The notes under the pieces: generated by a model | What the model was told of the DNA's origin: nothing | The model's database searches: none | Seen by the model: the letters and a program-made list of their open reading frames with translations, nothing else | Made by a program: the position numbers and the translations under genes | In this document: positions 34,197 to 62,106 of the stretch, one piece after another | Layout: each line of letters opens with the position of its first letter | Position numbering within the stretch: the stretch's first letter is position 1 | Origin: Puerhibacterium puerhi | Lineage (GTDB): Bacteria; Actinomycetota; Actinomycetes; Actinomycetales; Cellulomonadaceae | Length of the DNA: 64,000 nucleotides | NCBI RefSeq assembly: GCF_009846865.1 | Contig: NZ_WUWN01000006.1 | Coordinates: 62,001 to 126,000, forward strand | Direction of reading: 5' to 3'

Positions 34197-36830
34197 TCAG
34201 CCGGCGCTCGACGCCGAGGCCTCCGGGTCGCCGGCGCCGTCGCTGCCGTCGCCGGGCGTCAGCACGCCCTCCCGGTAGGCGGCGAGGATCGCGTCCTCCC
34301 GGCTCGTGACGCCCAGCTTGCGGTACAGCGACTTGACCTGCGTCTTGACGGTGTTGGGCGAGACCACCAGCTCCTCGGCGATCTTCGTGAAGCTGCGCCC
34401 GTCGAGCAGGGCGTGCAGGATCACCGACTCCCGCGCGGTGAGGACGATGCGCGAGACGCGCGCCGGCATGGCGTCGGGGACGTCGTCGAGCTCGGCGAGC
34501 TGCTCCGCGGCGAGGACGAGCCCGTGCGCCTGCGCGTGCGCCCGCAGGTCGTGCAGGTCCGGCCGGGGCACCAGCACCAGGTGGATGCGCAGCTCCTGGT
34601 CGGCCATGAGGGCGGCCATCCGCTCGAGCGCCGCCGTCACGGCGTCCGCGTCGCCGAGGCGTTGCGCGCCGGCCGCCACGAGCAGGTGGCCGGCCGCCGC
34701 CGCGCGCGGCGAGGCGGCACGGGTGACGCCGCCGCGCGCCAGCGTCGCGACCACCGTCTCCGGCTCCCCGCCGACCAGCGCGATGGTCGCGCGGACGATC
34801 GCGACCAGCGGCTGCCGGGTCGGCAGGCCGCGCAGCGCCTGCTCCGCCGCGCCCGCCCGGCCCTGGGCGAGCTCCAGCAGCGCCGTCACCGACTGCAGCA
34901 CGATCGTGTCGATCGGCGACGAGCGCCGGTGACGGCGGTCCTCGGCGCGGTACCGCTCGAGCTCCTGCAGACCGAGCTCCGCGCGTCCCCCGAGGCCGTG
35001 CACCATCGCCTGCAGCGCCACGAACAGCGGGCGGTACTCCAGGGCGGGCAGGTGCGGGCCCAGCGTGTCGATGTGCTGCTGCGCGCCGCCGCAGTCGAAC
35101 CGCTCGAGCGCCGCCAGCACGGCCGCCGCGTGGTACGGCGCGCCGGAGTAGCCGTCGCGCAGCTCGTCCGGCCAGGGCCCGCCCGCCACCTCGGCGACGA
35201 GCCGCCGCGCTGACGGCAGCTCGCCGAGCAGCGCGGTGATCGACCCCAGCACCGCGAGCGTCGACATCTCCGTCAGCAGCGGCAGGCGCGGGCGGTCGGC
35301 GAGGTTGACCATCAGCGCCTGGCGCGCCTCGGTGAGGTGGCCGGCGCGTGCCAGGGTGATCGCGTCCTGCACGCGCAGCTGGCCGGCCTGGTCGCCGAGC
35401 GGCTCCAGCTCCTCGGCGGTGGCGGTCGCCAGCACGGACAGCGCGCGCCGGGCGGCCCCGACGCCCTGGTCGGTGAGCCCCGACAGGCGCAGCGCCACCG
35501 CCTCGACCGTGGCGATCGTCGCGCGCTCGGCCCCGGCCGTCCGCGGCCCGACGAGGCGGGCGGCGGCGACCGCCGTCGCGAGGTACTCGAGCGCCCGCAG
35601 CCGGCGGTCGGGGTTGGCGTTGGCCGCGATCGCGCGCGCCATGGCGAGGGTGGGGTACCGGGCCACCTGGTGCCTCGGCACCTGGGCGACGGCGCGGTAC
35701 ATCTCGGTGCTGGTGATGAGCCGGTACCAGCTGCCGATCAGCACGTCGGAGGCGAGGCGCAGGTCGCCGCCGCGCACGGCGTGCCGCAGGGCGGTGAGCG
35801 GCTCGCCGTGGTGCAGGCTCCAGCGGGCGACCAGCACGTGCAGGCGTGCGAGGTCGCGGCCCAGGCGCACGGACGCCTCGCGCTGCAGCACGTCGCGCAC
35901 CAGGGGGTGGTAGCGGTACACGGGGCCGCCCGGACCCTCGCTGCGCATGACCAGGCCGAGCGCCTCGAGGTCGTCGAGCCGGTCCTCCGCGTCGGTGCTC
36001 CCACCCGCGAGCAGGCCGGCCAGCTCGAGGTCGAACGCCTCGGGCAGGCTGGTGCGCAGCACCAGGTGCCGGACGGCGGGCTCGGCCCGCGCGAGCAGGG
36101 ACAGCACGACGTCGCGCGCCAACGACCCGGGCGAGGCCGGGTCGGCGGCCGTGCCCGCCTCTACCCCCTGCAGCAGCACGGCGCGCACGAGCAGGGGGTT
36201 GCCCCCGCACGCGCGGTGCACCTCCTCGGCCCACGACTCGTCGACGCCGTGCGCCGCGAGCAGCGCGCGCGTCTCGTCGAGCGTGAAGGCGAGCAGGGTG
36301 CGGTCCACGGTGAGCGCCACCTGCGCGGCCTCGAGCGGGGAGGCGGTGCGGGTCGTCACCACGACCGACACGGCGGGGCACGCCGCGACGACCGCCAGGA
36401 CGTCGTCGTGCAGCGCCGCGTCGTCGACCGTGTGGTAGTCGTCGATCACCACGAGCACCGGGTCGGTGAGCTGGGCGAAGGCGCGCACGAGCAGGCCCCG
36501 CACGTCGGCGACGCCGCCCAGCAGCTCGCCGGCGCGGGCGAGCAGGGAGTCGGGGGCCACGAGACCCGCGTCGACGAGCCGGGCCGCGACGGCCTGCCAC
36601 GCGGACTCGCGCGTGCCCGACTCGCCGTCGAGGCCCACCCACACGCCGGCGACGTCGAGCGTGCGGCACCACTGCGCCACCAGCAGGCTCTTGCCGCTGC
36701 CGGCCGGCGCGCGCACGACGGTCAGCGGCGTCGTCGGGTCGAGGCGCGCGAGCAGGCGGGGCCGTTCGATCCCGTTGCGCGGGACCCGCGGTGCCCCCTG
36801 CACGCCGCGGCGGGACGTGGCCCCGCTCAT
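34197..36830 (-). CDS. LAL/MalT-type LuxR transcriptional regulator with ATPase domain
   Basis: This is an 877-aa regulator of the STAND class. The N-terminal NTPase has Walker A RAPAGSGKSLLVAQW (about residues 40-54) and the Walker B-like strand VLVVIDDYH. A long helical, TPR-like sensor region fills the middle. A LuxR/GerE helix-turn-helix closes the protein (LTARESVILHALLDGRSFTK and VVSPNTVKTQVKSLYRKLG). Such proteins oligomerise on ATP and ligand binding and activate nearby or distant operons. I chose the ATG at 36830 because coding-like sequence begins just after it; 36971 is an upstream alternative. The target is unknown. Confidence 0.87.
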   Translation of the reverse strand: MSGATSRRGVQGAPRVPRNGIERPRLLARLDPTTPLTVVRAPAGSGKSLLVAQWCRTLDVAGVWVGLDGESGTRESAWQAVAARLVDAGLVAPDSLLARAGELLGGVADVRGLLVRAFAQLTDPVLVVIDDYHTVDDAALHDDVLAVVAACPAVSVVVTTRTASPLEAAQVALTVDRTLLAFTLDETRALLAAHGVDESWAEEVHRACGGNPLLVRAVLLQGVEAGTAADPASPGSLARDVVLSLLARAEPAVRHLVLRTSLPEAFDLELAGLLAGGSTDAEDRLDDLEALGLVMRSEGPGGPVYRYHPLVRDVLQREASVRLGRDLARLHVLVARWSLHHGEPLTALRHAVRGGDLRLASDVLIGSWYRLITSTEMYRAVAQVPRHQVARYPTLAMARAIAANANPDRRLRALEYLATAVAAARLVGPRTAGAERATIATVEAVALRLSGLTDQGVGAARRALSVLATATAEELEPLGDQAGQLRVQDAITLARAGHLTEARQALMVNLADRPRLPLLTEMSTLAVLGSITALLGELPSARRLVAEVAGGPWPDELRDGYSGAPYHAAAVLAALERFDCGGAQQHIDTLGPHLPALEYRPLFVALQAMVHGLGGRAELGLQELERYRAEDRRHRRSSPIDTIVLQSVTALLELAQGRAGAAEQALRGLPTRQPLVAIVRATIALVGGEPETVVATLARGGVTRAASPRAAAAGHLLVAAGAQRLGDADAVTAALERMAALMADQELRIHLVLVPRPDLHDLRAHAQAHGLVLAAEQLAELDDVPDAMPARVSRIVLTARESVILHALLDGRSFTKIAEELVVSPNTVKTQVKSLYRKLGVTSREDAILAAYREGVLTPGDGSDGAGDPEASASSAG

Positions 36831-37123
36831 CCGGCGGCCGGGCGTGCGTCGGGGCGTGTCTCGGGGCGCGCGGCCGGGACCACGATGAGCGGTGCGGGTC
36901 GGAGCATCAGGGTCTTCGGATCGGCTCTTCGGTCGGGGCGGCGTGCCCGCACATCGGGCACCGAACGGCATCTATCGGTCATCCTCGGGCACGACGGCCC
37001 CCGAACGCCCGAACGACGGGGTGAGGCGGTGGGTGATTTCCTGCGCGCCGTCGCTCGCACCCGGACTCCGCCTCCCACCGCTCGCCTACGATGGCTGGTC
37101 GGCTGCGGCCACGGAGGTGCGAC
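36831..37123. other. Divergent regulatory region with short repeats
   Basis: This 293-bp gap lies between the LAL regulator and the sigma-factor gene. TCTTCGG occurs twice near 36914-36932, and CCGAACG-like heptamers recur near 36960 and 37000-37015. TACGAT at 37087-37092 is a good -10 for the sigma gene, with a start site near 37099 and a GGAGG box at 37111. This makes ATG 37124, not 37091, the start. Confidence 0.45.
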
Positions 37124-39376
37124 ATGACCATCGAGACCACCGGCGTCGACGACGTCGACCTCGTCGCTCGTCTGCGGGACGGCGACGACGGCGCGTACGC
37201 GGAGCTGTGGCGACGCCACCACGAGGCCGGACGGCGCGCCGCGAGCGCCATCACCAGGACCTTCGACCCCGACGACGTCGTGCAGGAGGCGTTCACGCGC
37301 GTCCTGGCCGCCGTGCGCCGCGGCGGCGGGCCGGACGGCGCGTTCCGCCCGTATCTGTACGCCGCGGTCCGCAACGTGGTGGTCGACTGGGGCCGCGCGG
37401 GGCGCGGGGTCCAGCTCGTGGAGGAGCCCGCCGACGGCGCGGACCCCGACGCGGCGTTCGACGACGCCGTGCTGGAGCGGACCGTCACCGGGGCTGCCTT
37501 CCGCCGGCTGCGCCCGGAGTGGCAGGCGGTGCTCTGGTACACCGAGGTCGAGGGCATGCCGCCGCGCGAGGCGGCCCCGCTGCTCGGCCTGAGCCCCAAC
37601 GCCGCCGCCGCGCTCGCCTACCGCGCGCGCGACGCGCTGCGGACCGCGTGGCTGCAGGCCCACGTGAACGACGACGCCGCCGAGGACGGCTGCCGGTGGA
37701 CCGTGGAGCGGCTCGGCGCCTACCAGCGGCGCACCCTCGCGCGCCGGGAGCACGACCGCGTGGAGGACCACCTCGCCACCTGCGTCACCTGCTCAGCCCT
37801 CGTCGTGGAGCTCGACGGCGTCGCCGCGAGCCTGCGCGGGGTGCTGCTGCCGCTGGTGCTCGGCCCGGGCGCCGTGGCGCTCGCCGGCGGGACCGGCGTG
37901 CTCGCGGGCGGCCCGGCCGTGCCCGAGGTGGCGGGCGGCGTGGTCCGACGGGTGCAGCGGTGGGCGCGGCGCTCGCCGGGGACGGCCGCCACGGTCGCCG
38001 CCGCGCTCGTCGTCGGCGTGGGCGCGGTCGCGGCGGGCGGCCTGCTGGCCGCGCGCGACGGCGTGGTGCCCCCGGCGCAGGTCGAGGCCCGGGTGCCGGG
38101 TCCGGCGTCGTCGACGGCGCCCGGCGACGGCACGACGGCGGGTGCGCACGACGGCGGGGCGGCAGCGGCGGGAGACGGGCAGGACGACGCGCCGGCCGAC
38201 GACCGGGCCGGTGCCCCGCGCGGCCTCCGGGCGCCGTCCGGCACGTGGTGGACGACGGTGCCCGCGGCCGCGGTGCCCCGGGGCGGCGCAGCCGACCGTG
38301 TCCCGGGCGGTGTCCTGGGCGGTGTCCCGGCCGATCTTCTGGGCGGGGGCGCGGACGGGCCCGCGACGGGCGAGAGCGACGAGCCGGGGGCCGACGAGGC
38401 GCCGGCGACGGACGCGCCGGTGGCTCCCGGGACCGAGGACCCGGGTGCTGAGGACCCGGGTGCTGAGGATCCGGGTGCTGAGGATCCCGGTGCGGAGGCT
38501 CCTGGCGAGCAGCCGGGCGGTGACCCCGGTGAGGAGACGCCGGGCATCGAGGATCCGGGCACCGAGGATCCGGGTGCTGAGGATCCGGGTGCTGAGGATC
38601 CCGGTGCGGAGGCTCCTGGCGAGCAGCCGGGCGGTGACCCCGGTGAGGAGACGCCGGGCATCGAGGATCCGGGCACCGGGGATCCGGGCACTGAGGACCC
38701 CGGTGCGGAGGATCCGGGCACTGAGGACCCGGGTGCGGAGGATCCGGGCACTGAGGATCCGGGCACTGAGGACCCCGGTGCGGAGGATCCGGGCACTGAG
38801 GACCCCGGTGCGGAGGATCCGGGCACCGAGGATCCGGGCACCGAGGACCCGGCCGTGTCGATCCCCGTCGTCACGGGGATCGACACGGGGGACGGCTTCC
38901 TGCTGCCGGTCGTCACGGGCACCGGCGTCCCCGGCGCGGAGGTCCGCGTGCTCGACGCGACCGGCGCCGTCGTCGGCAGCACCACGGTCGGCGAGACGGG
39001 TGCCTGGTCGGTGCTCGCCGAGATCGCCGCGCCCACCGCGAGCCTCTCGGTCGTCCAGGAGGTGGGCGGCGTCGTGTCGGACCAGGCGGATGCCGGGCAG
39101 GTCACCCTCCGGACGCCGACGGTCGTCGCGCTGGTCGACGGGATCCCCGAGCCGCTCGTGTCGTTCACCGGCACGCCGGGCGAGCACGCGCAGGCGCTTG
39201 TGGACGGCACGCCGACCGCGACCGTCCACCGGCTCGGGCTGCTGCCGCTGGAGCGCGTGATCCGCGGGCAGCAGCCGGGGGACCACACGTTCGGCCTGCG
39301 CTACTACGACCCCGAGACCGAGCGGTACGGCCTCACCGTGACCCGCGCGTTCGTCGTCGGCGGCCTCTTCGGCTGA
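37124..39376 (+). CDS. ECF sigma factor fused to anti-sigma zinc finger, membrane anchor and Ig-like domain
   Basis: This 750-aa protein has five parts. Sigma-2 is at about residues 15-75 (AYAELWRRHHEAGRRAA, DPDDVVQEAFTRVLAAV) and sigma-4 at about 120-185 (FRRLRPEWQAVLWYTEVEG, LGLSPNAAAALAYRARDAL). A ZAS-type anti-sigma zinc finger follows near 205-220 (HDRVEDHLATCVTCSAL; H-x3-C-x2-C). A membrane helix lies near 285-310 (TAATVAAALVVGVGAVAAGG). Then come a Pro/Gly/Asp/Glu repeat linker (about 435-580) and an Ig-like extracytoplasmic domain (about 590-750). Sigma and anti-sigma in one chain imply a tethered sigma factor that may need proteolysis for release (inference). The -10 TACGAT and the GGAGG box support this start. 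Confidence 0.82.
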   Translation: MTIETTGVDDVDLVARLRDGDDGAYAELWRRHHEAGRRAASAITRTFDPDDVVQEAFTRVLAAVRRGGGPDGAFRPYLYAAVRNVVVDWGRAGRGVQLVEEPADGADPDAAFDDAVLERTVTGAAFRRLRPEWQAVLWYTEVEGMPPREAAPLLGLSPNAAAALAYRARDALRTAWLQAHVNDDAAEDGCRWTVERLGAYQRRTLARREHDRVEDHLATCVTCSALVVELDGVAASLRGVLLPLVLGPGAVALAGGTGVLAGGPAVPEVAGGVVRRVQRWARRSPGTAATVAAALVVGVGAVAAGGLLAARDGVVPPAQVEARVPGPASSTAPGDGTTAGAHDGGAAAAGDGQDDAPADDRAGAPRGLRAPSGTWWTTVPAAAVPRGGAADRVPGGVLGGVPADLLGGGADGPATGESDEPGADEAPATDAPVAPGTEDPGAEDPGAEDPGAEDPGAEAPGEQPGGDPGEETPGIEDPGTEDPGAEDPGAEDPGAEAPGEQPGGDPGEETPGIEDPGTGDPGTEDPGAEDPGTEDPGAEDPGTEDPGTEDPGAEDPGTEDPGAEDPGTEDPGTEDPAVSIPVVTGIDTGDGFLLPVVTGTGVPGAEVRVLDATGAVVGSTTVGETGAWSVLAEIAAPTASLSVVQEVGGVVSDQADAGQVTLRTPTVVALVDGIPEPLVSFTGTPGEHAQALVDGTPTATVHRLGLLPLERVIRGQQPGDHTFGLRYYDPETERYGLTVTRAFVVGGLFG
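38428..38853 (+). repeat. PGTEDPGAED-type coding repeats with a 114-bp tandem duplication
   Basis: Fifteen-base units (such as GATCCGGGCACTGAG) encode EDPGT/EDPGA pentads. Within them a 114-bp segment (38 residues, including APGEQPGGDPGEETPGIEDP) is present twice in tandem, offset from about 38481 to 38595. Unit number is likely to vary by slippage. The reading frame is kept throughout. Confidence 0.8.
38855..38886 (+). other. Intragenic perfect hairpin
   Basis: GTGTCGATCCCCGT (38855-38868) pairs perfectly with ACGGGGATCGACAC (38873-38886) across the 4-nt loop CGTC. It sits exactly at the boundary between the repeat linker and the extracytoplasmic domain of the sigma-factor fusion. Confidence 0.6.
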
Positions 39377-39439
39377 CCCGCCCGCGGCGCATCGGTCCGC
39401 GAGCCGCCGCGAGGTGCGCGTCGGCCGCCGGGCGTGCGC

Positions 39440-39480
39440 CACAATCGAGGCGTCGCCCACCGCCCGCGCAGGAGGCCCGC
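39440..39480 (+). promoter_or_regulatory. Promoter -10 CACAAT and ribosome-binding site
   Basis: CACAAT at 39440-39445 is a good -10. AGGAGG lies about 5 nt before the ATG at 39481, so this transcript has a short leader, unlike the leaderless genes elsewhere. Confidence 0.4.
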
Positions 39481-40854
39481 ATGATCGTCGCGCCGTTCGG
39501 CCGCTACACCTCCGGCCGCGTGCCCGACCCGGGCATCGCCGCCCTGTTCACGCGGGAGAACCGGTGGCAGGCGCGGCTCGACGTCGAGGCGGCGCTCGCG
39601 CTCGCGGAGGCCGACGCCGGGCTGGTGCCCGCCGAGGCGGCCCGGGCGATCGCGCTCACCGCGCGCATCGAGAAGCTGGACCTCAAGCGGGTGCTGAAGG
39701 CCACGAGCGAGGCGAGCCACCCGCTGGTGCCGCTCATCGAGGAGTTCGCGCGCGTCGTCGGCAACCAGCACGGAGGCTGGGTGCACTGGGGCGCCACCAC
39801 GCAGAACATCACCCAGACGGCCGACGTGCTGGTGCTGCGCGACGCGCACGCACGGATCAAGCAGCTGCTCGGCCGGGCGCTGCGGGCCGGGGCGCGCCAG
39901 GCCCGGCTCTCGGCCGAGCTCCCCATGGCCGGGCGCACCCACTCCCAGCACGCCGTCCCCATCACCTTCGGGTTCAAGGTGGCCACCTGGCTCGACGAGC
40001 TGGTCGCGCACGCCGACCGCCTGGAGCGGCTGGAGGAGCGGCTGTTCTGCGTGCTCATGGGCGGCGCCGTCGGCACCTTCGCCTCGTTCGGCGCGGCCGG
40101 CCGGGACGTCGAGGCGGGGGTCGCGCGGCGGCTGGGGCTGCGCCCGATGCGGGTGCCGTCGCGGGCTATCAACGACGGCATCGTCGAGTACGTGCTCGTG
40201 CTGGCGCAGGTCGCCGGGACGATCGGCAAGATCGGCAAGGACGTCTACGCCCTCATGCAGCCGGAGTTCGGCGAGGCGTTCGAGCCGATCCCGGACGGCA
40301 CCGTGGGCAGCTCGACCATGCCGCACAAGCGCAACCCGCAGCTCGCCCTCGACATGCTCACGATGTCCGCCGAGCTGCGGGCCCTGGCGGCCCCGGCGCT
40401 GGAGTCGATGCTGCACGACCAGGAGGCCAACGGCGCCATGACGGCGCTGCTGGAGGACGTCTCGGCGTCGGCCACCGTGCTGGCCGGCGACATGCTCGCC
40501 CGCCTCGACGTGGTGCTCGACGGCCTCGAGCTCGACGGTCCGCGCATGCGGCAGAACCTGCGCCTGTCGGCCGGGATGATCGGCTCGGAGTCCCTCATGC
40601 TCGCCCTCGGCGAGAAGATCGGCCGCCAGGAGGCGCACGAGGTCGTCTACGCGGTGGCGCAGAAGGCGGCCACCACCGACGCGCCGTTCCTCGACCTGCT
40701 CGGCGCGGAGCCCGCGGTGATGGACGTGTTCACCGTGGAGGAGGTGCGCGCCCTGCTCGACCCGTCGGCGTACCTGGGCCGCAGCGTGGAGATCGCCCGC
40801 GGCACCGCGCAGGTGGCCGACGACGTCGCCGACCGGCTGCTCAAGGACGCCTGA
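39481..40854 (+). CDS. Fumarase/aspartase-superfamily lyase (adenylosuccinate lyase/PcaB-like)
   Basis: This is a 457-aa cytosolic enzyme of the homotetrameric lyase superfamily. The signature loop is GSSTMPHKRNPQ, and the upstream catalytic segments are WVHWGATTQNI and GRTHSQHAVPITFG. Length and motifs resemble 3-carboxy-cis,cis-muconate cycloisomerase (PcaB) and related adenylosuccinate-lyase-family proteins more than the housekeeping PurB. No beta-ketoadipate genes are nearby, so the substrate is open. Confidence 0.83.
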   Translation: MIVAPFGRYTSGRVPDPGIAALFTRENRWQARLDVEAALALAEADAGLVPAEAARAIALTARIEKLDLKRVLKATSEASHPLVPLIEEFARVVGNQHGGWVHWGATTQNITQTADVLVLRDAHARIKQLLGRALRAGARQARLSAELPMAGRTHSQHAVPITFGFKVATWLDELVAHADRLERLEERLFCVLMGGAVGTFASFGAAGRDVEAGVARRLGLRPMRVPSRAINDGIVEYVLVLAQVAGTIGKIGKDVYALMQPEFGEAFEPIPDGTVGSSTMPHKRNPQLALDMLTMSAELRALAAPALESMLHDQEANGAMTALLEDVSASATVLAGDMLARLDVVLDGLELDGPRMRQNLRLSAGMIGSESLMLALGEKIGRQEAHEVVYAVAQKAATTDAPFLDLLGAEPAVMDVFTVEEVRALLDPSAYLGRSVEIARGTAQVADDVADRLLKDA

Positions 40855-60924: not shown

Positions 60925-62106
60925 ATGGCCACCCCCACCCCTGCCGAGCGCGCCGCCGGCCAGCACCCGTCACGCCACCGCACCCCGGCCGACGTCCGCC
61001 GCTGGCGCCGCTACCTCGCGGACGAGCGCGCGGAGGCCGCCGTCTACCGCGACCTGGCCGGACGCCGCTCGGGCGAGGAGCGCGAGATCCTGCTCGCGCT
61101 CGCCGAGGCGGAGCGCCGCCACGAGCAGCACTGGCTCGACCTGCTGGGCGACGACGCCGGACGCCCGCTGCGCGGCGACCTGCGCACCCGGGCGCTGGGG
61201 TGGCTCGCCCGGCGCTTCGGCGGCGTCTTCGTGCTCGCGCTCGCCCAGCGCGCCGAGGCCCGCTCGGGCTACGTGGACGAGGCGGACGCCACCGCGGCGA
61301 TGGCCGCCGACGAGAAGATCCACGAGGAGGTGGTGCGCGGCCTGGCCACCCGCGGCCGCAACCGGCTCTCGGGCACGTTCCGCGCGGCAGTCTTCGGCGC
61401 CAACGACGGCCTGGTGTCCAACCTCGCCCTGGTGCTGGGCATCGGCGCCTCGGGCGCGGCGCAGCACACCGTGCTGCTCACCGGCCTTGCCGGCCTGCTC
61501 GCCGGCGCCCTGTCGATGGGCGCGGGGGAGTTCGTCTCGATCCGCTCCCAGCGCGAGCTGCTCGAGGCCTCCACGCCGGGCGCCGACGCCGCCCGGGCGC
61601 TGCCGCACCTGGACGTCGACGCCAACGAGCTCGCGCTCGTCTACCGGGCCCGCGGCATGGAGGCGGCCGAGGCGCAGGGGCACGCCGACGCCGTCCTGGC
61701 CCGCCTCGCGGCTGCGGGCACCATGACCGGCACCGGGGCCGTCCCGGTGGCCCCGACCGCGCGCGACCTGCACGCCACCCGGGCCGCGGAGGCGGACGCC
61801 GGTGTCGAGGCCGACGACCTCGAGACGCACGGCACCGCCTGGGGCGCCGCGCTGTCGAGCTTCTGCTTCTTCGCCTCGGGCGCCGTGATCCCGGTGCTGC
61901 CGTACCTGCTCGGGCTCGAGGGCCTGACGGCGGTGGCGGTCGCCGCCGCGCTCGTGGGCGTGGCGCTGCTGGTCACCGGTGCCATCACCGGCCTGCTGTC
62001 CGGCACGTCGCCCCTGACCCGGGCGCTGCGGCAGCTCGCGATCGGCTTCGGCGCGGCAGCGGTCACCTACCTCCTCGGCCTGGCGTTCGGCACCTCCGTG
62101 GCGTAG
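60925..62106 (+). CDS. MbfA-like ferritin-domain / VIT1 iron exporter
   Basis: This 393-aa protein has an N-terminal ferritin/erythrin-like helical domain with paired metal ligands (DERAEAAVYRDLAG, LAEAERRHEQHWLDLLG) and later AADEKIHEEVVRGLA. Next comes a Ccc1/VIT1 membrane domain with VFGANDGLVSNLALVLGIG, LSMGAGEFVSIRSQREL and three C-terminal helices. Such fusions sense or oxidise iron and export Fe or Mn from the cytosol. It appears monocistronic. Confidence 0.86.
   Translation: MATPTPAERAAGQHPSRHRTPADVRRWRRYLADERAEAAVYRDLAGRRSGEEREILLALAEAERRHEQHWLDLLGDDAGRPLRGDLRTRALGWLARRFGGVFVLALAQRAEARSGYVDEADATAAMAADEKIHEEVVRGLATRGRNRLSGTFRAAVFGANDGLVSNLALVLGIGASGAAQHTVLLTGLAGLLAGALSMGAGEFVSIRSQRELLEASTPGADAARALPHLDVDANELALVYRARGMEAAEAQGHADAVLARLAAAGTMTGTGAVPVAPTARDLHATRAAEADAGVEADDLETHGTAWGAALSSFCFFASGAVIPVLPYLLGLEGLTAVAVAAALVGVALLVTGAITGLLSGTSPLTRALRQLAIGFGAAAVTYLLGLAFGTSVA

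Follow-up and report, generated by a model that had tools for sequence, protein, structure and literature searches.

A candidate one-protein outside-in transcription switch in Puerhibacterium puerhi: a sigma factor, a zinc anti-sigma motif, a membrane helix and an immunoglobulin-like pair in a single chain

Can one polypeptide read a signal at the cell surface and also act on transcription? The question is raised by a gene at positions 37124-39376 (plus strand) of the window, that is, the whole stretch of 64,000 nucleotides analyzed here (contig NZ_WUWN01000006.1 of the actinomycete Puerhibacterium puerhi, assembly GCF_009846865.1, forward strand positions 62,001 to 126,000). Its 750-residue product joins an extracytoplasmic function (ECF) sigma factor, a zinc anti-sigma (ZAS) motif, a predicted membrane helix, an acidic repeat spacer and two immunoglobulin (Ig)-like domains. 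The best explanation of this arrangement is, in our judgment, a one-protein outside-in transcription switch, which we consider somewhat more probable than its rivals combined. Through such a switch, a signal at the cell surface could act directly on genes.

The gene is a single open frame starting with ATG at 37124 and ending with TGA, preceded by a ribosome-binding-site-like GGAGGTG (37113-37119). With an alternative start at 37091, also an in-frame ATG, the protein would have 761 residues; MTIETTG is the start of the protein in the nearest orthologue too. Third-codon GC content is 97-98% over the sigma and ZAS parts and the C terminus (69% in the repeat) and the closest orthologue has the identical order of parts, so the fused frame is not a product of chance; together with the start and ribosome sites, this ruled out a spurious fusion. 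The open frame, the Pfam and NCBIfam matches and the hydropathy profile thus bear out the first-pass annotation, made from the sequence alone, which had placed sigma domains, ZAS motif and membrane helix in one chain.

Sigma regions 2 (residues 10-92, 37151-37399) and 4 (residues 108-182, 37445-37669) are both covered by helices in the structure model. Pfam Sigma70_r2 matches residues 29-91 with 28.8 bits (cut-off 24) and NCBIfam sigma70-ECF scores 47.3 bits (cut-off 42.9). For Sigma70_r4_2 at residues 125-172, the cut-off of 25.7 is missed by the protein scan, with 23.4 bits, and passed by the genome scan, with 28.6. The region 2 model superposes on region 2 of Escherichia coli sigmaE (4lup_C) with a Z score of 12.8, at 2.1 Å over 90 residues. 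Its motif DPDDVVQEAF aligns with DAEDLTQETF of Mycobacterium tuberculosis SigE, and D51 is kept in 136 of the 144 family rows used for all conservation counts (145 frames, minus L038 and L120, which were copies of L076 and L041, plus the window protein). As far as sequence can tell, these residues, which presumably contact core polymerase, are retained; their loss would have spoken against the earlier annotation. By these matches the protein belongs among the ECF sigmas.

Region 4 is unusual in its -35 helix, NAAAALAYRAR (residues 159-169, 37598-37630). Canonical ECF sigmas carry a helix of the T-V-R/K-S-R type at this recognition position, and the corresponding Ala, Ala and Leu of the window protein align by motif with R171, S172 and R173 of E. 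coli sigmaE, which we take to be DNA contacts. Leu occupies the third of these key positions in 137 of the 144 rows. Three clear other sigmas of the same genome, a weak control, have GTVMSRLHRGR, GTVRSRIHRAR and SAVKVRIHRAR. In a rough pairwise estimate against Isoptericola variabilis, the ratio of nonsynonymous to synonymous substitution rates (dN/dS) was 0.21 in the sigma part, 0.59 in the ZAS part and 0.74 in the Ig pair.

Directly behind the sigma part, Pfam zf-HC2 matches residues 190-223 with 31.7 bits (cut-off 22.2). The putative zinc ligands are C190, H216, C220 and C223 (37685-37792), and the HxxxCxxC motif of class I ZAS proteins is present. Of the 144 rows, 139 retain H216, C220 and C223 and five have gaps there; at position 190, Cys stands in 132 rows and His in nine. 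The collection was gathered with the family's own sequences and so favors members with the zinc motif. The nine rows in which His replaces the first zinc Cys may possibly differ in zinc or redox behavior. A helix follows at residues 221-252 (37784-37879), with a hydrophobic end, P243 and G247 conserved in 128 and 123 of the 144 rows, respectively, and a predicted local distance difference test score (pLDDT) that drops along its length from 89 to about 48. By alignment, the sigma and zinc motifs are intact, and the inner half of the protein is conserved across the family and looks able to function. In the model, the sigma-2/sigma-4 arrangement comes closest to that of inhibited SigK (4nqw_A; 5.3 Å over 145 residues), whereas polymerase-bound sigmas with at least 130 aligned residues deviate by 19-29 Å; this is at most a hint of a SigK-like inhibited arrangement.

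The predicted membrane helix occupies residues 284-311 (37973-38056), where Kyte-Doolittle hydropathy peaks at 2.28 and model confidence is low. It is preceded by the arginine cluster RRVQRWARR (residues 275-283, 37946-37972) and, farther upstream, by weaker overlapping hydrophobic windows at residues 217-260 with a peak of 1.66. Among 116 family members (from the 145 frames, those closed, at least 450 residues long and freed of copies), a membrane segment with a peak of at least 1.6 was found in 113, and an earlier hydrophobic stretch directly after the zinc motif in 104. Net charge was higher before the membrane segment than after it in 101 of the 113 (equal in 9, reversed in 3), and the part beyond was net negative in 105. 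Because RRVQRWARR lies between the two hydrophobic stretches of the window protein, a cytosolic location of that segment is favored. The charge pattern points to a chain that crosses the membrane once, with the N terminus inside and the C terminus outside. Export of the C-terminal half, as first annotated, is very probable from charge distribution and domain types, and a cytosolic placement is not supported.

Beyond the membrane, a low-complexity linker (residues 312-435, 38057-38428) leads to the acidic PG-repeat spacer (residues 436-572, 38429-38839). The spacer, first reported as an acidic stretch of 140 residues, has 137 residues, 28 of them Pro and 32 Gly, and a net charge of -49. Its DNA consists of a 15-bp array and a 114-bp unit (2.5 copies, 92% match), which together with the low third-codon GC of 69% suggests recent growth of the array. 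Against I. variabilis, 32 of 67 aligned residues of the repeats are identical, indicating that the character of the spacer is kept between the two species and its letters are not. By ordinary polymer lengths, the spacer would have to be stretched to span the cell wall. An Extensin_1 match was rejected as a real domain, being far below the cut-off and falling on the repeat.

The C terminus had been annotated as an Ig-like domain; the fold holds, but the single domain gives way to two in tandem, modeled with a pLDDT of 94.2. The first, at about residues 582-661 (38867-39106), carries a Pfam Big_6 match at 596-645 (30.8 bits, cut-off 27.6), and the second lies at about residues 666-745 (39119-39358). 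The best fold match of the pair is to Ig domains of SiiE (2yn3_A; Z 11.4, 156 residues, 12.1 Å), followed by the Bap C region (7dm0_A; Z 10.1, 150 residues, 11.4 Å). Since many fibronectin-type pairs nearly equal these matches (Z 8-9.5), the likeness to SiiE and Bap names a common fold. The Ig profile searched against the sequences of solved structures gave a best E value of only 0.0025. The pair was detected in 20 of 121 family genomes (E 1e-8, own genome included), being in frame with the sigma-ZAS part in 17, in another frame in one and cut by contig ends in two, so that it accompanies this sigma in all 18 genomes that could be followed. With all 18 of these matches beside a sigma and a single match in the own genome, the idea that the pair is a common wandering domain was rejected. 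At locus L257, the sigma-ZAS and Ig-pair frames overlap in different reading frames, reflecting a frameshift or an assembly error.

Other members carry other outer parts. A Pfam scan of 67 members (E 0.001) found Big_6 in 14, Big_13 in 7, NPCBM in 5 and DUF11 in 2, with single cases of ricin-B lectin, GH85_C, SH3_3, a rhamnogalacturonan lyase (RGI-lyase) sheet domain and other Ig types. All five Streptomyces-like proteins scanned, so named here for the size of their genomes and for this domain, have NPCBM, and a separate clade within the window's family has proteins of 1178-1624 residues. From these comparisons, the outer half appears to be a changeable, sensor-like part mounted on a conserved inner half.

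How widely is this architecture distributed? The genome resembles those of Isoptericola: the closest named relative, among the best 80 of 580 homologues, is I. variabilis JZ7, with 76% identity over residues 1-291. Genome searches gave matches in 26 of 39 genomes (E 1e-20 or better) and, with the family's profile, in 21 of 246 genomes of the phylum (E 1e-25), own genome included in both; later comparisons used a profile or phmmer on six-frame translations. Further matches in the own genome lie on contigs C13 (63% identity over residues 8-237) and C49, both reaching contig ends, and on C34 (287 residues). A quick tree of 83 of 143 rows places the window protein among Micrococcales-type rows and the Streptomyces-like rows, together with one long-branch row, in a starred set of their own; deeper joins are unstarred. 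One close relative, L077, sits on a 3.1-kb contig of an Acidobacteria metagenome-assembled genome, which is perhaps a mis-binned actinobacterial contig.

Upstream regions of the relatives point to a shared promoter-like motif. These numbered 134 in the first motif check and 132 in later counts, for which length limits and a threshold of E 1e-40 or better applied; the region upstream of the window gene was scanned separately. After thinning to 124 regions, motif discovery gave the dyad GCGT-20-GTCT in 42, against a maximum of 12 in 20 block shuffles; the fuller form is GCGTCAT-N17-GTCTC. Across the regions before loci L036-L155 and L185-L204, a matrix built from 29 training sites (L076-L155) matched before the sigma gene in 63 of 132 regions, on the other strand in 66 and on either in 89, training sites included; related loci are not independent, so these counts are not counts of events. 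The background in dinucleotide shuffles was about 1% per strand. Outside the training range, the motif was found in 23 of 54 loci, and 15 of the 17 proteins longer than 900 residues there had it on the reverse strand, facing a divergent gene; only the matrix was held out in this comparison, the motif form itself being derived from all loci jointly.

At seven loci (L048, L049, L051, L053, L055, L061 and L064), the divergent gene starts 6-7 bases past the motif, and of all 66 reverse-strand sites, 16 have their first ATG 5-7 bases behind and 10 have none within 120 bases. The divergent protein next to the long-clade sigmas measures about 255-314 residues; the form of about 255 residues had no Pfam match in two examples and the own-genome C49 neighbor. 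Exact copies of the motif across the 39 genomes amount to 29 sites in 18 genomes, compared with 2 for the reversed pattern. Of these 18 genomes, 16 are among the 26 that have a sigma match, and 2 are among the 13 that lack one. Several of the 29 sites fall inside coding frames and may be chance. The genes behind some of them, named by eye, encode three small LuxR-type proteins, a secreted anchor-type protein and a sugar-transferase-like protein. The motif was absent from all seven Streptomyces-like loci. It looks like the promoter of many family sigmas and of some targets, and the unusual -35 helix would suit its unusual -35 box. The motif may already be published, as Casas-Pastor 2021 reportedly contains group-level ECF promoter predictions. 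In several Microbacteriaceae-type loci, a copy also lies shortly 3' of the sigma gene (L078, L079, L084, L085, L104, L106, L107, L111, L113, L125, L136 and L147); at L078 and L079, a secreted-looking protein may come after it, judged by eye.

In the own genome, five sites of the shorter form were found, compared with none in controls. The single full site (contig C19, 38926-38954, minus strand; L296) lies ahead of a secreted-looking protein with repeat arms and a BNR_4 domain (E 6.6e-75). Within the window, a search allowing two mismatches gave 5 motif matches, against 7.57 expected. A scan for sigma-70-type promoters and terminators found none of either.

Starting from the computed gene, order of parts, intact motifs, conserved inner half, varied outer halves and relatives' motif, we infer self-inhibition, topology, a ligand, proteolysis and target genes of a switch that would work as follows. 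The N-terminal ECF sigma would be held inactive by the ZAS domain of the same chain, which would cross the membrane once and continue as a flexible acidic spacer. Within the cell wall or past it, the terminal Ig pair would come into contact with a ligand, a polysaccharide or a surface, and binding or strain there would lead to proteolysis near or in the membrane, probably also in the cytosol. The sigma part so freed would then activate genes whose secreted products belong to the surface or act on polysaccharides. Proteolysis would be the likely means of release; the own genome has two matches to site-2-type M50 proteases.

A number of observations weigh against this switch or parts of it. The proposal as a whole is a computational one. 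Inhibited ECF sigmas other than SigK (those in complexes with RseA, MucA or RsbN) deviate from the model by as much as 11-12 Å, and with a predicted template modeling score (pTM) of 0.43, a sigma-2/sigma-4 linker pLDDT of 51-67 and no error matrix, the sigma-ZAS contact cannot be judged from it. The hydrophobic stretch after the zinc motif could itself be a membrane segment, and 76 of 113 members lack Lys and Arg between the two stretches, so that charge says less on topology in them. Ligand binding by the Ig pair is purely putative. M50 proteases occur in all 14 control genomes, which makes their presence weak support for proteolysis. The family motif is absent from 36500-39600 on either strand, from the region before the I. 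variabilis orthologue (L076) and from those before the nearest tree rows, L039 and L073, where it was not found on the other strand either; nor does an exact full site occur in G001, an I. variabilis-type genome of the own genus. Autoregulation by this motif is therefore unsupported in the window's clade, and for the window gene it was rejected. Use of the motif by the window sigma would be a guess by analogy. The C19 site has no nearby ATG (TTG and GTG lie 3 and 198 bases behind, respectively) and may be read by the window sigma or by a paralogue; outside the own genome, none of the remaining 38 of the 39 genomes gave a match to the BNR_4 part (E 1e-40).

Four other explanations compete with the one-protein switch. 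The same switch might work without proteolysis, the ectodomain signal loosening the ZAS grip so that the sigma acts or shuttles while tethered to the membrane. The family members, being single chains, would allow this, but the one experimentally characterized case, IutY, is activated by proteolysis according to a 2022 review (PMC8999054), and a disordered linker of about 260 residues would transmit strain poorly; we regard this alternative as unlikely. About as unlikely is that the outer part serves merely to anchor the protein or to tether it across the wall, with the signal sensed in the cytosol through redox change or zinc loss at the ZAS motif. ZAS cysteines in other anti-sigmas can sense thiols, and this account would fit both their conservation here and the poorly conserved spacer sequence. 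It does not explain why the Ig pair is a confidently modeled two-domain module that stays with the sigma in every followable genome, or why relatives have lectin or NPCBM domains outside, which a plain anchor would not need.

That both hydrophobic stretches cross the membrane, leaving the C-terminal half in the cytosol, is quite improbable. Most members do have both stretches, the majority without Lys or Arg between them, and known groups are described with one to two membrane helices (PMC8999054). In the window protein, however, RRVQRWARR between the stretches favors the cytosol, the first stretch has the lower peak and is modeled as the end of the post-zinc helix with falling confidence, and the distal domains are of kinds usually seen in exported proteins. 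Least probable is that the sigma head has become a nonfunctional relic on what is now a surface protein. The Ala, Ala and Leu opposite the sigmaE residues and the Sigma70_r4_2 score below cut-off in the protein scan would fit such a relic; against it, dN/dS is lowest in the sigma part, the same type of helix occurs family-wide and many relatives have the promoter-like motif. Having weighed these, we retain the one-protein switch as the preferred reading.

A broader proposal is offered more tentatively, as one we would sooner doubt than expect. The Micrococcales-type fused sigmas may form a separate ECF group in which the inner half is conserved, the spacers change fast and the outer sensors (the Ig pair, further Ig types, long arms of repeats and lectin-type domains in single cases) can be exchanged; most would have one promoter code, GCGTCAT-N17-GTCTC, read through the unusual -35 helix. 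This group would act as a contact-sensing system in which a surface or polysaccharide outside the wall calls up secreted adhesins and polysaccharide-acting proteins.

Next to the sigma gene lies a divergent LuxR-type regulator gene with GerE and AAA matches (34197-36971, minus strand), which adjoins the sigma gene in the nearest orthologue's contig too; a regulatory link between the two may exist but is putative. The region between them (36972-37123) has blocks in common with I. variabilis, e.g., TCGGTCATCCTCGGGCAC.

How does the window protein relate to known systems? The first-pass annotation had seen in it an unusual bypass of the two-gene arrangement; that view is not supported as it stands, as the fused sigma/anti-sigma/membrane design is already known in actinobacteria. 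According to the review, ECF48, ECF52 and ECF53 are actinobacterial sigmas fused to a zinc-finger membrane anti-sigma, for which proteolytic release is expected (PMC8999054). A close parallel is the ECF52 protein SCO4117 of Streptomyces coelicolor, described with a zinc finger, membrane region, proline-rich spacer and carbohydrate-binding domain after the sigma, in an order like that of the window protein; proteolytic release was proposed, and a truncated form with the sigma domain had a milder defect than deletion (PMC5826349). The zinc finger and membrane helix that follow the sigma in ECF52 are both present here. The outer domain differs, being a carbohydrate-binding NPCBM in ECF52 and an Ig pair in the window protein, which has no NPCBM or other carbohydrate-binding module among its Pfam matches. 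Streptomyces-like NPCBM homologues were recovered by the profile of the window's family, and the window gene shares with them the lack of the motif. Some ECF52/53 proteins have predicted glycosyl hydrolase and carbohydrate-binding domains (PMC10766802). ECF53 and ECF48, compared by description only, carry at the C terminus a fused zinc finger together with one or two membrane helices (PMC8999054). The window protein is thus a fused sigma/anti-sigma that, by its outer domain, is not an ECF52 member. The matches listed from titles and abstracts of open-licence papers included neither an Ig-type outer domain on a fused sigma nor a fused-sigma family of Microbacteriaceae/Cellulomonadaceae.

The analysis adds the Ig pair kept with the sigma, itself an unusual outer part, together with the varied outer domains on a conserved inner half and the family's promoter-like motif. 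Since the family has this motif and outer domains that can be exchanged, and since many of its hosts are named isolates, signal, release and regulon are testable with one reporter, and a fused sigma could serve as a modular chassis for outside-in sensors. IutY of Pseudomonas putida (ECF243) is likewise a one-protein sigma and membrane anti-sigma, from which Prc and RseP cut the sigma free, and the 2022 review names it as the only fused sigma with experimentally characterized proteolytic activation (PMC8999054). It differs in serving Gram-negative cell-surface signaling for iron (PMC8999054, PMC5411451), the regulatory halves being compared by description. The two-gene pairs SigK-RskA and SigW-RsiW have the same sigma fold as the window protein, which unites in one polypeptide, with a large ectodomain, what these pairs divide between two.

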